33,370 nucleotides of DNA, taken from the NCBI GenBank assembly GCA_001901525.1, contig MPSY01000007.1:1-33370 (forward strand), given 5' to 3'. The translations under genes and the position numbers were made by a program. How positions within the stretch are numbered: position 1 is the first letter of the stretch; each line of letters begins with the position of its first letter. The stretch comes from Methylococcales bacterium OPU3_GD_OMZ (GTDB lineage: Bacteria; Pseudomonadota; Gammaproteobacteria; Methylococcales; Methylomonadaceae). This document shows positions 24,648-30,737 of the stretch, in pieces. A model generated the notes under the pieces. It was not told the origin of the DNA, ran no database searches, and was given only the letters and a program-made list of their open reading frames with translations.

Positions 24648-26549
24648 TTATTGTGCATCCGCCACCGGTGCCGAAATACCATCTAAAACGAGCGATGCCA
24701 CAGTAGAACCCGTTAATGCTTCTAAAAAATATACCAACGCCTTTTTCTCTTGTCCGGTTAAATGCAAAGGCACAATAAGCGGATCTAGATCTGGGTTTTC
24801 AATCCCCCCCTGATCATAAAAATTTACCACTTGTTGCAAGGTGGAAAACTGACCATTATGCATATAAGGGGCAGTCAGTGAAATATTTCGTAACGACGGC
24901 GTTCGATAACGCCATTTATCTTTCGGGTCTTGCGTGACTTCATAACGCCCCAAATCGCTTACCTTTTGCTCGCTTACCGTAGCAATCAAAGCACTGTCTA
25001 CCGTGACAAACTGTCCTGGCGCTAACTGAACCCGTTGCTGACTGGGTTTAGACTTAAGAGCCTCTTGATAACCCAAACCGGTATTATGCCACTGCTCATC
25101 GGTAAATAATGCCGTTTGGTCGGTCAGCCGGTGACAATTTGCACAGCGCGCCTTTCCTACAAACAATCGATACCCTTGTTGCGCTAAAGGGGTTAAAGCA
25201 TCCTTCTGGTCGTCAAAAAACCAACGATCAAAGCGAGAATCAGCCGCGTTCAAGGTACGCTCATAACTGGCAATCGCCATAGCGACCGTTTCCATGCTGA
25301 CACCGCGCTTAAAAGCGCGTTGAAATAAACCCGCATAATCAGCACTTACCTTTATTTTTTCAACCACATAACCAATGGAAGGATTCGCCATTTCATTAGC
25401 CGCTAACAACGGCCCCCAAACCTGATTTTCCAAACTGGTTTCCCGCCCGTCATGAAATAACGTGACATTAAAGGCAACATTAAAAAGACTCGGTGCATTA
25501 CGCCTGACGGTACGACCTTCAAAACCAACCGCTGTTTTCAGTTGATTATTAGTGAAGCCCTGCTCAGGAATATGACACATGGCACATGAAAAAGTATTAT
25601 TTAACGAGAGGCGTCGATCATAAAACAACTTCCGCCCTAACTGTACTTTGTCTTTAGTTAGCGGATTATTAGCGGGTACCGGAATAGCCGGTAACCCTAA
25701 CGGGGGCTGTTTGACGGTACTGAGTAAGTCAAACGGTTGCTCCATACCGTCAATCAAAGCATCAAATTCTTGTTGAAAAGGTATTTTTTCATTGTCAGCA
25801 AATGTCTGAAGTCTTGTCTGGCGCCATAACGCCTCACGCTTTAGAAGACTACCAAAACGCTCACTCTCCTTCGCAACAGCGCTAAGCACCGTTTTAACAT
25901 CATTGATGACGGTTTCTGGATGTAAAAAGGCAACACTATAGATATTTCTGATCCGTTTGGTTCGATCAATTAAAAAAACGCGTAATTGATGGGAAAAGGT
26001 CCCCGTGAATAGCCCCTGTTGATCATAATTCTTTTTTACCGACTGCCCATAGCCATCTAGTATAGGGGTTAACTGATCATCAGACCTTGTCGTTAAAAAC
26101 TGCCAATCAATCCCCTGCCCCTGAAACCCCTGACTATACTGCTGCATTTTCTCCGGCGTATCGTACTGCGGATTAAAACTCAATGTTAATAACCGTAGCT
26201 GTTGGCTGATTTCCGGTGCTTTTGCCAATTGACGTTTTATTTTATGAAAAACGGCTGTGGCTAACGGGCAACCATTAACATCGCCACAAGTCGAATAAAT
26301 AAAACTCAGTAAAACAATTTTATCCCCCATGAGTTGATGCAATGACAACGCATCCCCTTGGCTATTGAGGATGGAGCCATCAGTAGCACGGCCCAAGGCA
26401 GGTAAACGATAGCTCCCCGGTGCCGGCGCTGGGTAATGTAAGGCCCGATAACCCGGGGCCAGTACTTCAGAGCGGCCCGAATCACCTTGTACCGGAGCAC
26501 TCAACACACAAGCTGTGAGTACCAGCCCCCAGAGTTGAACTGTTGTCAT
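24648..26549 (-). CDS. SCO1/SenC - di-haem cytochrome c peroxidase (MauG-like) fusion
   Basis: A signal peptide (about 1-22) precedes a SCO1/SenC thioredoxin-like copper-handling domain (about 50-225). Its cysteines are Cys88 and Cys94 (STCGDVNGCP), a CX5C instead of the usual CX3C, and the distal His is His187. A di-haem peroxidase domain (about 270-620) follows, with haem sites CAMCH (322-326) and CANCH (469-473) and a PYMHNGQF segment near 560. It lies 70 bp behind the methanethiol oxidase gene. SCO and MauG-like functions are known companions of that enzyme and are thought to help its copper loading or maturation. Here the two are one polypeptide. It is periplasmic, and probably the second gene of a three-gene operon. 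Confidence 0.88.
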   Translation of the reverse strand: MTTVQLWGLVLTACVLSAPVQGDSGRSEVLAPGYRALHYPAPAPGSYRLPALGRATDGSILNSQGDALSLHQLMGDKIVLLSFIYSTCGDVNGCPLATAVFHKIKRQLAKAPEISQQLRLLTLSFNPQYDTPEKMQQYSQGFQGQGIDWQFLTTRSDDQLTPILDGYGQSVKKNYDQQGLFTGTFSHQLRVFLIDRTKRIRNIYSVAFLHPETVINDVKTVLSAVAKESERFGSLLKREALWRQTRLQTFADNEKIPFQQEFDALIDGMEQPFDLLSTVKQPPLGLPAIPVPANNPLTKDKVQLGRKLFYDRRLSLNNTFSCAMCHIPEQGFTNNQLKTAVGFEGRTVRRNAPSLFNVAFNVTLFHDGRETSLENQVWGPLLAANEMANPSIGYVVEKIKVSADYAGLFQRAFKRGVSMETVAMAIASYERTLNAADSRFDRWFFDDQKDALTPLAQQGYRLFVGKARCANCHRLTDQTALFTDEQWHNTGLGYQEALKSKPSQQRVQLAPGQFVTVDSALIATVSEQKVSDLGRYEVTQDPKDKWRYRTPSLRNISLTAPYMHNGQFSTLQQVVNFYDQGGIENPDLDPLIVPLHLTGQEKKALVYFLEALTGSTVASLVLDGISAPVADAQ

Positions 26550-26619
26550 TTTTTCTTATATACACTCATGGTTAACTTAAGCACCGTAGTTCTGGGTGTA
26601 CGATGCAAGCACACGGACG

Positions 26620-27957
26620 CTAACGATACAATGAAAAAGCCCCAAACCGCATCTGGTGTGGGCGACCTAATTTTTCTTGCGTAAAATCAATAGCAAACTG
26701 TTGTTTCAATGCGCTACCATCCCAATGATAAAGCTTTAGAAACTGTTCATTATCTTGCCCTTTTTTATCCCAGTTGGCGAGCAATGAGGAAGTATAATAA
26801 AGACGTTTTCCATCCCAACTTGATGACACCATATTGACTTGTGCACCAATCTTCTTTTCATAAATTTGCTTGGGATTAAAGGGATCCGAAATATCAAAAC
26901 CTCGAGTCTTGCCATCCATAAAGGTATTAACCCATAACAGTTGATCATCACTCTGAATTGAAATATCAACCGGCAACGGTATTTTGGAAGGATCACCGAT
27001 ATCAGCAACTTCTTTGCTTTGCCACTGGCCCTGAGCATCTTCATAAATTAACCATATTTTTGATGTTAACGCTGTCGAGGTAAAACAATAATTATGCTCA
27101 GGTTTTAAAGCACAACGAATTTCCAAGGGAGCCCCTGGAACATCAAAAACTTTAACCGGCTGACGCGTCTTCAAATTCCATTGCACCATCGTGGAACCAA
27201 ACTGTTTCATCGCCGTTTGATCACTTAACATCTTGCCAAAATCCATCATATAATTGGACCATCCGGTAAACGATGAAGTCAGCATAAGATTGCGCCGAGG
27301 CAGTACCCGTACGTCGTAATTATAACCATCCGCATACTGACCGGTTTTCACCGCACCATTCAATTGACTATCTGTTGGCACCCAATGCGTTGCAATATAG
27401 TCACCACTGTTTGTATATTCAACTAACGCACCACGACCACCATGATCCTTATTATTAGATAACGCCGTCATCATCATCCGGCCCGGCAACGCATAAGTAG
27501 TATGCGGCCCAACGGCTCCACCACTTTTAGCCACAAAATCAGTAATGACTTTATGCAACTTAGGCTTGGCTGGATTAGAGTACACATCAAAAATAAAGAT
27601 CTTACTGGTGTCTAAGCCTGCCGCCCAAAGATAACGACGGTCATCGGTAAAACCTGAGTGATGGGCTTCATTGCGCCCCCCGACCGAACGCGTATGAATC
27701 ACTTTGCCGTAGTTATCTGAACTCGGTCTCACATCAACCGTCACTAATTTATCCTGTTCATCACCCACCCCTTTAACCCCTAGGGTCCATACATACACAA
27801 AATCTTCTTGTCCTGAAATCTTTGCCATATACGGTGACTGACAGGTTTCATCTGCCTGGGTCACGGTTGGTAACACCCCTAATAACAAAAAAATGCTAAT
27901 ACTGGCTGAAAATACACCCAACCTTCTCATACTATTTTTCTTAAAAAAGACTTTCAT
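26620..27957 (-). CDS. mtoX: Methanethiol oxidase, selenium-binding protein 56 family
   Basis: The roughly 445-residue product belongs to the SBP56 family. Bacterial MtoX converts methanethiol with O2 and water to formaldehyde, H2S and H2O2 and is a periplasmic copper enzyme. A signal peptide (MRRLGVFSASISIFLLLGVL...) is present near the N-terminus. Family segments include GGRNEAHHSGFTDDRRYLWA with paired histidines, GPHTTYALPGRMMMTALSN, SFTGWSNYMMDFGKML, and near the end KLGRPHQMRFG. The start is put at ATG 27957 behind GTGAGGTC; an in-frame GTG exists at 27969. Linkage to a SCO/MauG protein strengthens the call over other SBP56 roles. It is divergent from a GlxA-type regulator. The formaldehyde product would suit a methylotroph. 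Confidence 0.88.
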   Translation of the reverse strand: MKVFFKKNSMRRLGVFSASISIFLLLGVLPTVTQADETCQSPYMAKISGQEDFVYVWTLGVKGVGDEQDKLVTVDVRPSSDNYGKVIHTRSVGGRNEAHHSGFTDDRRYLWAAGLDTSKIFIFDVYSNPAKPKLHKVITDFVAKSGGAVGPHTTYALPGRMMMTALSNNKDHGGRGALVEYTNSGDYIATHWVPTDSQLNGAVKTGQYADGYNYDVRVLPRRNLMLTSSFTGWSNYMMDFGKMLSDQTAMKQFGSTMVQWNLKTRQPVKVFDVPGAPLEIRCALKPEHNYCFTSTALTSKIWLIYEDAQGQWQSKEVADIGDPSKIPLPVDISIQSDDQLLWVNTFMDGKTRGFDISDPFNPKQIYEKKIGAQVNMVSSSWDGKRLYYTSSLLANWDKKGQDNEQFLKLYHWDGSALKQQFAIDFTQEKLGRPHQMRFGAFSLYR

Positions 27958-28062
27958 CACTGACCTCACAGCTAATTAACTAAAAAAACAGCTCTTTATT
28001 ATTCAACATTAATCATTTCAGACCGCACCTTAATAGGCTGCCATATGCTATCGCACCATGCA

Positions 28063-28183: not shown

Positions 28184-29194
28184 ATGAAATCGCTATCCAT
28201 CTCCATTCTCGCTATCGAAGAAACCATGGTCTATACCTTAGCTGGACCCCATGATATTTTTTCTTCCATCAACCTTTTTAATAAATCATCCCAAGTCGAT
28301 AAAAATTACTTTACCAGTTCAACCCATATTGTTGGTCCTCGAAAAGGATTAATTACTTGTTATAACGGCTTAGCGATAAACTGCCAGAAAAGTCTTGAGG
28401 AGGTTAATCATACCGATTTAATTATTATTCCTTCCTTAGAATTACTCGATGAACCGATACTGCATAAATATCCTAAACTCAAAAATTGGCTTATAAATCA
28501 TTACCGTCAGGGCGCAACCATTGCCTGCATTTGTCTGGGCTCATTTTTATTAGCTGAAACCGGATTGCTCGACCATAAAATCTGTACGACTCATTGGGCT
28601 TTTACACAAAGGATGCAAGCCACATTTCCCACCCTTGAAATACATAGCGACAAAATCATTACCGAACAAAACAATTTAATTTGTTCAGGAGGAGCAACAT
28701 CTTGGCAAGACCTGACTTCTTACTTACTAAAAAAATTCACAAACGCAGAAAAAACCCGTGAAATTAATAACTTTTTCTTATTAAACTCACATGAAGACGG
28801 CCAAACCCCCTTTACAGACCTATTAAATATTTCTGTTGCTAATGATTTAGTTATTCAAAAAACATGCGATTGGATCAATAACAATCTAAATAACCCTGAC
28901 TTGCTCCGTACTTCAATTCAATTATCCGCTTTAACAGAACGAACCTATAAACGCCGCTTCAAACAGGCGACGGGGTTGTCGCCCCTTGAATATATACAAA
29001 ATATTCGAATTGAACACGCCAAAAAACAGCTAGAAAACACACAAAAGAACATCCAAACCATTTCTGAGGAAATCAACTATACCGATGGCAGTTATTTTCG
29101 CCGTCTATTCAAACGTAAAACAGGAATGACAGCCCAAACCTACCGAAAACGATTTTCAACACTAAATCCAGCTAAAAATCATTTAAAAAAATGA
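28184..29194 (+). CDS. GlxA family AraC-type transcriptional regulator
   Basis: The 336-residue product has a DJ-1/PfpI-like N-terminal domain (about 5-190). Its nucleophile-elbow cysteine is likely Cys117 in ACICLGSFLLAETGLLD, and it has the family's TTHW segment at 135-138. A C-terminal AraC double helix-turn-helix domain (about 222-325) follows, with SALTERTYKRRFKQATGLSPLEYIQ and YTDGSYFRRLFKRKTGMTAQTYRKRF. Such regulators sense small metabolites and activate catabolic operons. Divergence from mtoX across about 225 bp suggests it controls that operon. This is inference. The start ATG is preceded by AT-rich sequence with no clear Shine-Dalgarno. Confidence 0.9.
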   Translation: MKSLSISILAIEETMVYTLAGPHDIFSSINLFNKSSQVDKNYFTSSTHIVGPRKGLITCYNGLAINCQKSLEEVNHTDLIIIPSLELLDEPILHKYPKLKNWLINHYRQGATIACICLGSFLLAETGLLDHKICTTHWAFTQRMQATFPTLEIHSDKIITEQNNLICSGGATSWQDLTSYLLKKFTNAEKTREINNFFLLNSHEDGQTPFTDLLNISVANDLVIQKTCDWINNNLNNPDLLRTSIQLSALTERTYKRRFKQATGLSPLEYIQNIRIEHAKKQLENTQKNIQTISEEINYTDGSYFRRLFKRKTGMTAQTYRKRFSTLNPAKNHLKK

Positions 29195-29286: not shown

Positions 29287-29397
29287 ATAATTACAATGCA
29301 TTTTATTAAGCATTTTTTCAGGACAAACCAACCTTTTTTTAAAAAATTGTCCCCAATAATTTGCAACTATTTTTGATTTTTTACAGAGGTAATTTAG

Positions 29398-29615: not shown

Positions 29616-29645
29616 AAACGACCCTGAGTCTCACCAGGGTCGTTT
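29616..29645 (+). terminator. Rho-independent-type terminator of the csp gene
   Basis: AAACGACCCTG-AGTCTCAC-CAGGGTCGTTT is a perfect 11-bp stem with an 8-nt loop, 14 bp behind the csp stop. The U-run is short (TTT, then A's) but the stem is strong. Confidence 0.75.
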
Positions 29646-30055
29646 AAAACGACGTAAAAAAATAACTGAGTCGCTCCGCCACATCCTGTGGCAGAGCTAT
29701 GATGTCGCTTTAATAAGATTACCTTGAGTGTTCATTCCTTTGGCAAGTCCCTTTGCTATCTAAAAAAAGAAATCCATGCCTTTTTCCAGCGACAATTACA
29801 TTATCACTTACAAAAAACAATCTACACAAGTGGTAAAAAACCATCAATTTATGTAAGTAATTGCTTACCACCGGCATCAAGTTATACAACTCCCCCCCTT
29901 GGTTAGCGGTTTTCGCCTTTTTTGCTATTAAAACGCAAGCGACACAAAAAAAGACTTTAATTTTTTTTGTTAAAAGAAACTTTTAAAAAAATAAGATGTC
30001 AACGAAACCAGAAGGCAGAGGACATAGAAAGCCTAACTTCCTTCCAGTCATCATC
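29646..30055. other. Intergenic stretch behind csp, no gene seen
   Basis: About 410 bp between the csp terminator and the SD hairpin at 30056. The short open frames here have atypical composition and no ribosome site. It contains the imperfect dyad at 29673-29697, long A and T runs near 29945-29990, and a small dyad AAAAG-AAA-CTTTT. The AT-rich run could hold a promoter for the small ORF at 30082, but no clear box pair is seen. Confidence 0.4.
29673..29697. repeat. Imperfect 11-bp inverted repeat (REP-like)
   Basis: GCTCCGCCACA-TCC-TGTGGCAGAGC is an 11-bp dyad with one mismatch and a 3-nt loop, just behind the csp terminator. No U-run follows on either strand. It may be a dispersed REP-like palindrome or a second mRNA hairpin. 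Confidence 0.4.
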
Positions 30056-30076
30056 CCTCTTGCTTTTCGCAAGAGG
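30056..30076 (+). promoter_or_regulatory. Hairpin sequestering a Shine-Dalgarno
   Basis: CCTCTTGC (30056-30063) pairs perfectly with GCAAGAGG (30069-30076) around a TTTTC loop. The right arm holds the AGAGG of the Shine-Dalgarno for the ATG at 30082. When folded, the ribosome site would be hidden, as in RNA thermometers or protein-controlled switches. Confidence 0.5.
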
Positions 30077-30081
30077 AAAGT

Positions 30082-30231
30082 ATGGGTATTTTCGGAGATG
30101 GTTATACTTATACGCTCTTTGCTCCTTTGGTCATGGAGACCAAAGGAGCAAAACTTAATAATGCTAATCAACCATTACACGTTACCTCACGTAATACATA
30201 TACTGTAGACGAAGCACTGACTACATTATAA
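30082..30231 (+). CDS. Hidden small ORF, 49 residues, unknown function
   Basis: An ATG follows AGAGGAAAGT, one of the better Shine-Dalgarno sites in the window. The frame runs 49 codons to TAA. The product begins MGIFGDGYTYTLFAPLV and ends NTYTVDEALTTL. It is rather polar, rich in Thr, Asn, Leu and Gly, with no transmembrane segment or signal peptide. I do not recognise a family. The codons look ordinary for the neighbourhood. The ribosome site sits in a hairpin (30056-30076) and codons 13-24 contain a perfect 15-bp inverted repeat. It could be a real small protein under translational control or a chance frame across a structured RNA gene. It lies between csp and the 128-residue membrane protein gene, 25 bp before the latter. 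Confidence 0.45.
   Translation: MGIFGDGYTYTLFAPLVMETKGAKLNNANQPLHVTSRNTYTVDEALTTL
30118..30152. repeat. Perfect 15-bp inverted repeat
   Basis: TTTGCTCCTTTGGTC (30118-30132) and its exact complement (30138-30152) flank an ATGGA loop. No U-run follows on either strand, so it is not a standard terminator. It lies inside the small ORF at 30082 and is the most stable hairpin I see in the window. It may be the core of a small RNA, an mRNA stability element, or a recoding/attenuation structure. Confidence 0.7.
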
Positions 30232-30256
30232 AATATGTAGCATTATCCTTATTTCA

Positions 30257-30643
30257 ATGCCTAACATGGTACTGCAGTGCACCGAACAATCAGATCTTTT
30301 ACTTAACAAGCGTTCTGTAGCAATGGGGTGGCTGATACCTCTCGGATTAATGTTGCTTTCAAGAATGCTTTTTTCTCAAATTCAAGTTGTAGGTCTTGTT
30401 TGGACAATAGCATTCGCTTGGATGGGATGGGCTTGTTTTATTAATGCTAAACAATGTCAACGTATACATTGTTTTTTTACCGCACCGTTGTTCTTTCTGT
30501 TGTCCGTGATTACTCTGGGAATTACACGGGATTGGCCGATTGTCAATCAACTGTCTCTTGATTTATTAGGTTTAATAGCAGTTATAACGACCGCTTTACT
30601 GTGGGTTCTCTCTGAAAAGTACGCAAATCGTTACCAACGATGA
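30257..30643 (+). CDS. Small conserved membrane protein
   Basis: The 128-residue product has about four hydrophobic segments (about 22-40, 43-60, 73-90 and 100-120). It has a cysteine/histidine motif, CFINAKQCQRIHCFFTAPLF, at 60-79, which recalls a family of small membrane proteins with an RCGRxHCxxTGPxFL-like signature. I cannot give it a function. The paired Cys and His suggest metal or thiol chemistry, which is inference. ATG 30257 or 30266 is the start; neither has a strong ribosome site. Confidence 0.65.
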   Translation: MPNMVLQCTEQSDLLLNKRSVAMGWLIPLGLMLLSRMLFSQIQVVGLVWTIAFAWMGWACFINAKQCQRIHCFFTAPLFFLLSVITLGITRDWPIVNQLSLDLLGLIAVITTALLWVLSEKYANRYQR

Positions 30644-30700: not shown

Positions 30701-30737
30701 AAAATAAAAAAAGGTGAACATGATTATGTTCACCTTT
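30701..30737 (-). terminator. Terminator behind the carbonic anhydrase gene
   Basis: AAAGGTGAACAT-GATT-ATGTTCACCTTT (30710-30737) is a perfect 12-bp stem. On the minus strand it is followed by a T-rich tail (complement of the A-run 30701-30709), giving a good intrinsic terminator about 65 bp behind the carbonic anhydrase stop. Confidence 0.75.

Follow-up and report, generated by a model that had tools for sequence, protein, structure and literature searches.

A conserved run of four hairpins behind a cold-shock gene in one genus of Methylococcales, probably a structured non-coding RNA

Does the intergenic stretch behind the cold-shock gene csp of Methylococcales bacterium OPU3_GD_OMZ encode a small protein whose start is hidden in RNA structure, or is the structure itself what has been kept? 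The window, i. e. the whole stretch of DNA analysed here, comprises 33,370 nucleotides of contig MPSY01000007.1 and belongs to a genome of 2.1 Mb in 304 contigs. A sequence-only reading of the locus had proposed a small protein or a dual-function RNA, switched by temperature or by the cold-shock protein: a 49-codon open reading frame (ORF) with its Shine-Dalgarno (SD) sequence and ATG fully enclosed in a perfect 8-bp hairpin, and with a perfect 15-bp inverted repeat inside the frame. The ORF is indeed present on the plus strand, and so is the repeat, which corresponds to hairpin H3 with its arms at 30118-30132 and 30138-30152 (see the table). We find that sequence, structure and synteny are conserved at this locus without conservation of the frame. 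Judged from comparison and folding predictions, the stretch is probably a structured non-coding RNA: over about 150 nt it is predicted to form four hairpins in series, and it occurs in a single genus, where it keeps its place behind csp. The hairpins are real; so is the reading frame, but it is probably incidental.

Features of the locus between the csp gene and the end of the 49-codon ORF (positions in the window)
Feature	Position	Strand	Remarks
cspA-type thermoregulator, Rfam RF01766	29292-29647	over csp gene	Rfam match
candidate pairing site AACTATTTTTGA in csp 5'UTR	29365-29376	+	33 nt before csp ATG (window)
csp gene, cold-shock domain, 67 aa	29398-29601	+	Pfam PF00313, E 6.1e-32
promoter-like stretch GAAACTTTTAA...ATGTCAA	29976-30002	+	conserved; putative sigmaE/ECF layout AACTT-N16-TCA at 29978-30001
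hairpin H0	30011-30044	+	outer stem GAAGG 30011-30015 / CCTTC 30040-30044, interior variable
hairpin H1	30056-30076	+	8 bp perfect, CCTCTTGC 30056-30063 / GCAAGAGG 30069-30076; SD-like AAGAGG in 3' arm
hairpin H2	30080-30113	+	arms 30080-30089 / 30104-30113; ORF ATG within stem
49-codon ORF, judged incidental	30082-30231	+	frame and length not conserved
H2 apical segment TCGGAGATGGTT	30092-30103	+	complementary, G-U included, to csp 5'UTR 29365-29376
hairpin H3	30118-30152	+	perfect 15 bp in window; probable 3' boundary of element

Structure, conservation and genomic setting of the element

Within the element (about 30006-30157), the stretch 30009-30157 is predicted to fold into the hairpins H0 to H3. 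On the plus strand the z-scores range from -4.5 to -5.9 among the four genomes that carry it, and the same four-hairpin fold was obtained independently for the window and for the congener G002. For positions 30004-30160 of the window the z-score is -5.46, and none of 200 shuffles folded as well. The window has two perfect inverted repeats of at least 12 bp with a loop of at most 10, H3 and 30710-30737, whereas 20 dinucleotide shuffles of it gave none. By comparison, when the intergenic region was shuffled 2000 times, 11.8% of the shuffles contained an SD-led ATG ORF of 25 codons or more and 2.5% one of 49 codons or more. Given these frequencies, chance accounts for the ORF far more easily than for the hairpins.

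In the four-way alignment, the window and G002 agree at 32 of the 34 positions of H2, 31 of 39 in H3, 17 of 22 in H1 and 22 of 36 in H0; outside the element the figures are 35 of 105 for the variable spacer (29871-29975) and 40 of 117 for the sequence past H3, directly after which homology between the clades drops to 33-34%. The first 28 nt of H2 (30080-30107) as well as its 12-nt loop are identical in the four genomes, the four outer pairs of H0 are invariant, and all 12 consensus pairs of H3 are kept in every genome. H1 is likewise kept in all four, without its basal pair in G003 and with changes in G002 and G004. The stems persist next to csp in all three congeners, which supports this part of the sequence-only reading. 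So that the test would not be circular, the structure found for one clade was scored on the sequence of the other, with random placement of the same changes as the null: The G002 structure keeps 38 of its 41 pairs on the window (29.6 expected; none of 5000 placements as good) and the G004 structure 37 of 41 on G003 (P 0.0002), while the window structure keeps 39 of 49 pairs on G002 (P 0.047) and 40 of 49 on G004 (P 0.028). Invariant columns make up 71 of the 76 paired and 37 of the 72 unpaired consensus positions, a contrast for which Fisher's test is biased since the structure stems from the same alignment. None of the 38 consensus pairs is changed on both sides among the four genomes. The compensatory changes that the sequence-only reading had named as a check are thus absent, and the support consists in stem conservation and not in covariation; the comparison covers four sequences in two clades only.

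The block containing the element was found in four of the five genomes of the genus. A DNA query with 29700-30260 retrieves the locus in G003 (90%), G002 (69%) and G004 (67%); in the fifth genome, G001, which is 65% complete, neither the block nor, at E 1e-30, an araC gene was matched. In all four, csp lies upstream, preceded by an araC-type gene (28184-29194 in the window), which in G003 is divided between contig ends. The downstream side is different: the window and G003 share a gene for a 128-aa protein, followed in the window by a carbonic anhydrase gene, whereas G002 has an ftsH-like gene (so named from inspection of the sequence by eye) that starts about 620 bp farther downstream; the downstream sequence of G004 resembles that of G002. 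Since the downstream genes differ between the clades, the element is not the leader of the following gene. None of 22 loci with araC homologues in other genera adjoins a csp gene within the flank of at most 1500 bp available per locus. With up to three mismatches, the 28-nt core of H2 is present in four of 311 genomes of the order, all from this genus, and absent from the other 307; in the window's genome it has a single match. A covariance model (R1) run against 247 genomes gave matches in 19 at E <=10, with strong scores of 165-170 bits only in the four congeners, and its best match outside the genus had an E value of 0.09. No Rfam family matched the element above the gathering score. As would be expected of a small regulatory RNA, the element is a conserved, structured intergenic sequence without a conserved frame. 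Against such an assignment, neither a U-tract nor an intrinsic terminator was called at H3, in line with the lack of terminator features that the sequence-only reading had described.

Several neighbouring features were seen in passing. The 128-aa gene (30257-30643) encodes a probable membrane protein with no Pfam or NCBIfam match that is kept in G003. It is convergent with the carbonic anhydrase gene, and between the two lies the second of the repeats, a perfect 12-bp palindrome with an A-run at 30710-30737 that looks like a terminator on the minus strand. On the other side of the locus and divergent from the araC-type gene, 24648-27969 holds a methanethiol oxidase gene, mtoX (NF052453, 774 bits), beside a gene for a fused di-heme protein with an SCO-like and an MbnH-like part.

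The promoter-like stretch and a possible relation to csp

Directly before the element, GAAACTTTTAA-N-ATGTCAA is found at fixed spacing in all four genomes; the 27 positions of this stretch match the window at 25 in G003 and at 21 each in G002 and G004. It fits a sigmaE-like layout. A similar layout stands before rpoE in the window's genome (G000) and G003 and not in G002 and G004, i. e. in two versus two of the element-bearing genomes, and among six loci the rpoE upstream motif was present in L051 and L056 only. The pattern GRAACTTTT-N12-15-TCAA has two matches in the genome versus one for the control, and AACTT-N16-TCA occurs three times in the window. We propose that the element would be transcribed from this putative promoter and that the transcript would end at or just after H3. 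As a separate observation, a second sigma factor resembling RpoE (L058) scores above the family cut-off in G003.

Alternatively, the element may form the distal part of the csp 3'UTR and have no promoter of its own: read-through past a hairpin at about 29616-29645 would then carry the structured RNA of this element and of a further block (block A, 29670-29790), which would stabilise the csp transcript or be cut from it. This would agree with the position of the element behind csp in all four genomes, with the conservation of block A (102 of 121 positions identical between the window and G002), and with the fact that no sigma-70 promoter was called just before the element. However, the two conserved blocks are separated by the variable spacer, in which the window shares only 24-35 of 105 positions with the other clade, and it is directly before the element that the promoter-like stretch is conserved. 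We therefore regard the 3'UTR as an unlikely explanation. Block A itself (29674-29796) can form a hairpin GCTC.GCCAC...GTGGC.GAGC with a GTCGC/GCGAC closing stem and has no Rfam match; it may be another structured RNA or else belong to the csp 3'UTR. Next to it, the stretch 29791-29870 is identical between the window and G003 at all 80 positions, as compared to 40 of 43 in the last part of csp and 91 of 106 in the spacer 29871-29975.

For the separate small RNA that we favour, the csp 5'UTR is a candidate pairing target of the H2 loop. In each of the four genomes, the apical segment of H2 can form 12 uninterrupted pairs, G-U included, with a site that precedes the csp ATG by 33 or 34 nt; in G003, one of the G-U pairs has become G-C through a U to C change in the site. 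Among 20000 shuffled H2 loops, 0.50% matched the 5'UTR of the window and 0.19% those of all four genomes. This test was made after the fact, and 13 of 150 shuffled whole elements reach at least 12 pairs with the csp 5'UTR; the target is thus suggestive, no more than a lead. Moreover, G002 has a longer run of 14 pairs elsewhere, the window contains 11 sites for the H2 loop on its two strands, and the duplex energy stands out in G003 only (5% of mononucleotide shuffles as good, versus 23-34% in the others). Across the five genomes of the genus, the complement of the H2 loop with at most one mismatch was found at 17 places, four of them the element's own, versus 71 for the reversed control, i. 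e. with no genus-wide excess. The H0-H1 linker of the window has a site inside csp that is better than those of 100 out of 100 shuffles, and this site is not kept in G002.

A link between the element and csp is possible. With lower confidence than its transcription, we suggest that the H2 apical loop would pair with the csp mRNA in its 5'UTR, ahead of the ribosome site, and would thereby tune csp translation or mRNA stability. One may even speculate that a small RNA encoded next to csp controls this gene, its own upstream neighbour, with the H2 loop shifting the fold of the thermoregulator and thus providing a second, RNA-based input, possibly for envelope stress in view of the sigmaE-like promoter; this scheme we consider rather unlikely as it stands. 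If the pairing is true, a temperature-sensing mRNA leader would be joined with a small RNA encoded next door.

The reading frame, the second strand and the proposed hidden start

The ORF could nevertheless be translated, as a small-protein gene or as part of a dual-function RNA, with H1 and H2 hiding its start and with the sequence MGIFGDGYT as the active part or as a leader peptide. Indeed, an SD-like AAGAG(G) and the ATG are kept in the four genomes, the first nine residues are identical, and the ORF stays open for at least 25 codons in each. However, beyond about codon 12 the frame is shifted by a 1-nt indel between H2 and H3, the ORF lengths are 49, 34, 25 and 25 codons, and agreement between the clades is limited to MGIFGDGYT and to scattered residues as far as about codon 13. 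The nine shared codons contain no synonymous change, whereas csp differs between the window and the other clade at 18 or 19 of its 67 codons; this fits constraint on the RNA. The SD is locked in a predicted stem in three of the four genomes, and the product has no Pfam or NCBIfam match. As a query against 101 genomes, the 49-aa sequence found matches in 20 at E <=1: those in the window's genome, G003, G002 and G004 are this locus, and the remainder are either weak or part of long frames, many of which have about 720 to 744 aa. Against the wider genome contigs, one locus was found (DTSI01000057.1). Each of the other frames over H0 to H3 is broken in at least one genome, as read by eye from the alignment. 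The small protein was thus abandoned, and a translated ORF is in our view decidedly improbable; the ORF is probably a by-product of stop-poor hairpin sequence. More generally, the locus illustrates that an RNA rich in hairpins can look like a small gene whose ribosome site is concealed.

It may also be asked whether the palindromes act at the level of DNA, as sites for a protein or by folding as single strands, and give rise to no RNA. H3 is nearly symmetric, and both strands fold almost equally well, with z-scores slightly better on the plus strand in three of the four genomes; the strand is therefore weakly set. By our own count on the alignment, four one-sided changes are kept through G-U pairs on the plus strand versus two on the minus strand, so that the plus strand is the more likely one for the element. 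This slight excess speaks against an element acting as DNA, and so do its single copy (one H2 core match and no other strong model match) and the series of four hairpins with a promoter-like stretch, which is atypical for binding sites. We consider this explanation very unlikely.

Finally, a thermometer or a switch melted by the cold-shock protein, acting on the small ORF, is hardly tenable: the SD core does lie within an 8-bp hairpin and csp adjoins, yet in three of the four genomes this core is predicted to stay almost fully paired even at 60 C, and there is no conserved protein to switch. In the window, G002 and G004, the predicted unpaired probability of the SD is 0.000-0.015 from 5 to 60 C (at least 99% paired from 5 to 45 C and at least 98.5% at 60 C); in G003, where the outermost pair of H1 is lost, predicted accessibility is flat with temperature at 0.17 to 0.21. 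The proposed enclosure of the start in one hairpin was also only partly correct: the 8-bp stem is perfect, but it contains only the SD core AAGAGG, the AAAGT spacer lies outside it, and the ATG falls in the 5' arm of H2, a hairpin that had been overlooked.

Comparison with known RNAs

Other known classes were considered and rejected. A CsrA sponge of the CsrB/RsmZ type does not fit, with only the GGA of the H2 loop kept in a loop in all four genomes; csrA is present. For 6S RNA, the window has no RF00013 match, and the genome's 6S RNA lies on another contig. The cspA thermoregulator RF01766 was found over the adjacent csp in all four genomes and is the csp mRNA itself; its match ends at 29647, before the element, and the arrangement is the same in the three relatives. 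Methylococcales small RNAs are little described: no title on that subject was found in the open paper library, and titles and the openings of abstracts held nothing on this element.

Some RNA thermometers hide the SD in a hairpin. The element shares with them an SD core placed in a stem; it differs in that no melting is predicted at physiological temperatures and that no conserved gene follows. SgrS is a dual-function small RNA, a structured RNA with a short ORF, and the element is likewise structured and contains a short ORF, which in this case is conserved neither in frame nor in length. The closest likeness in description is offered by GspR of Sinorhizobium, a small RNA that has been shown experimentally to act on a csp mRNA, cspA5, through a stem-loop (PMC5928217). 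GspR has three predicted stem-loops with single-stranded loops that pair with mRNAs including the cold-shock cspA5, much as we suggest for the H2 loop and the csp 5'UTR; GspR is alphaproteobacterial and is described there as trans-encoded (PMC5928217), and the likeness of the two RNAs is one of description.
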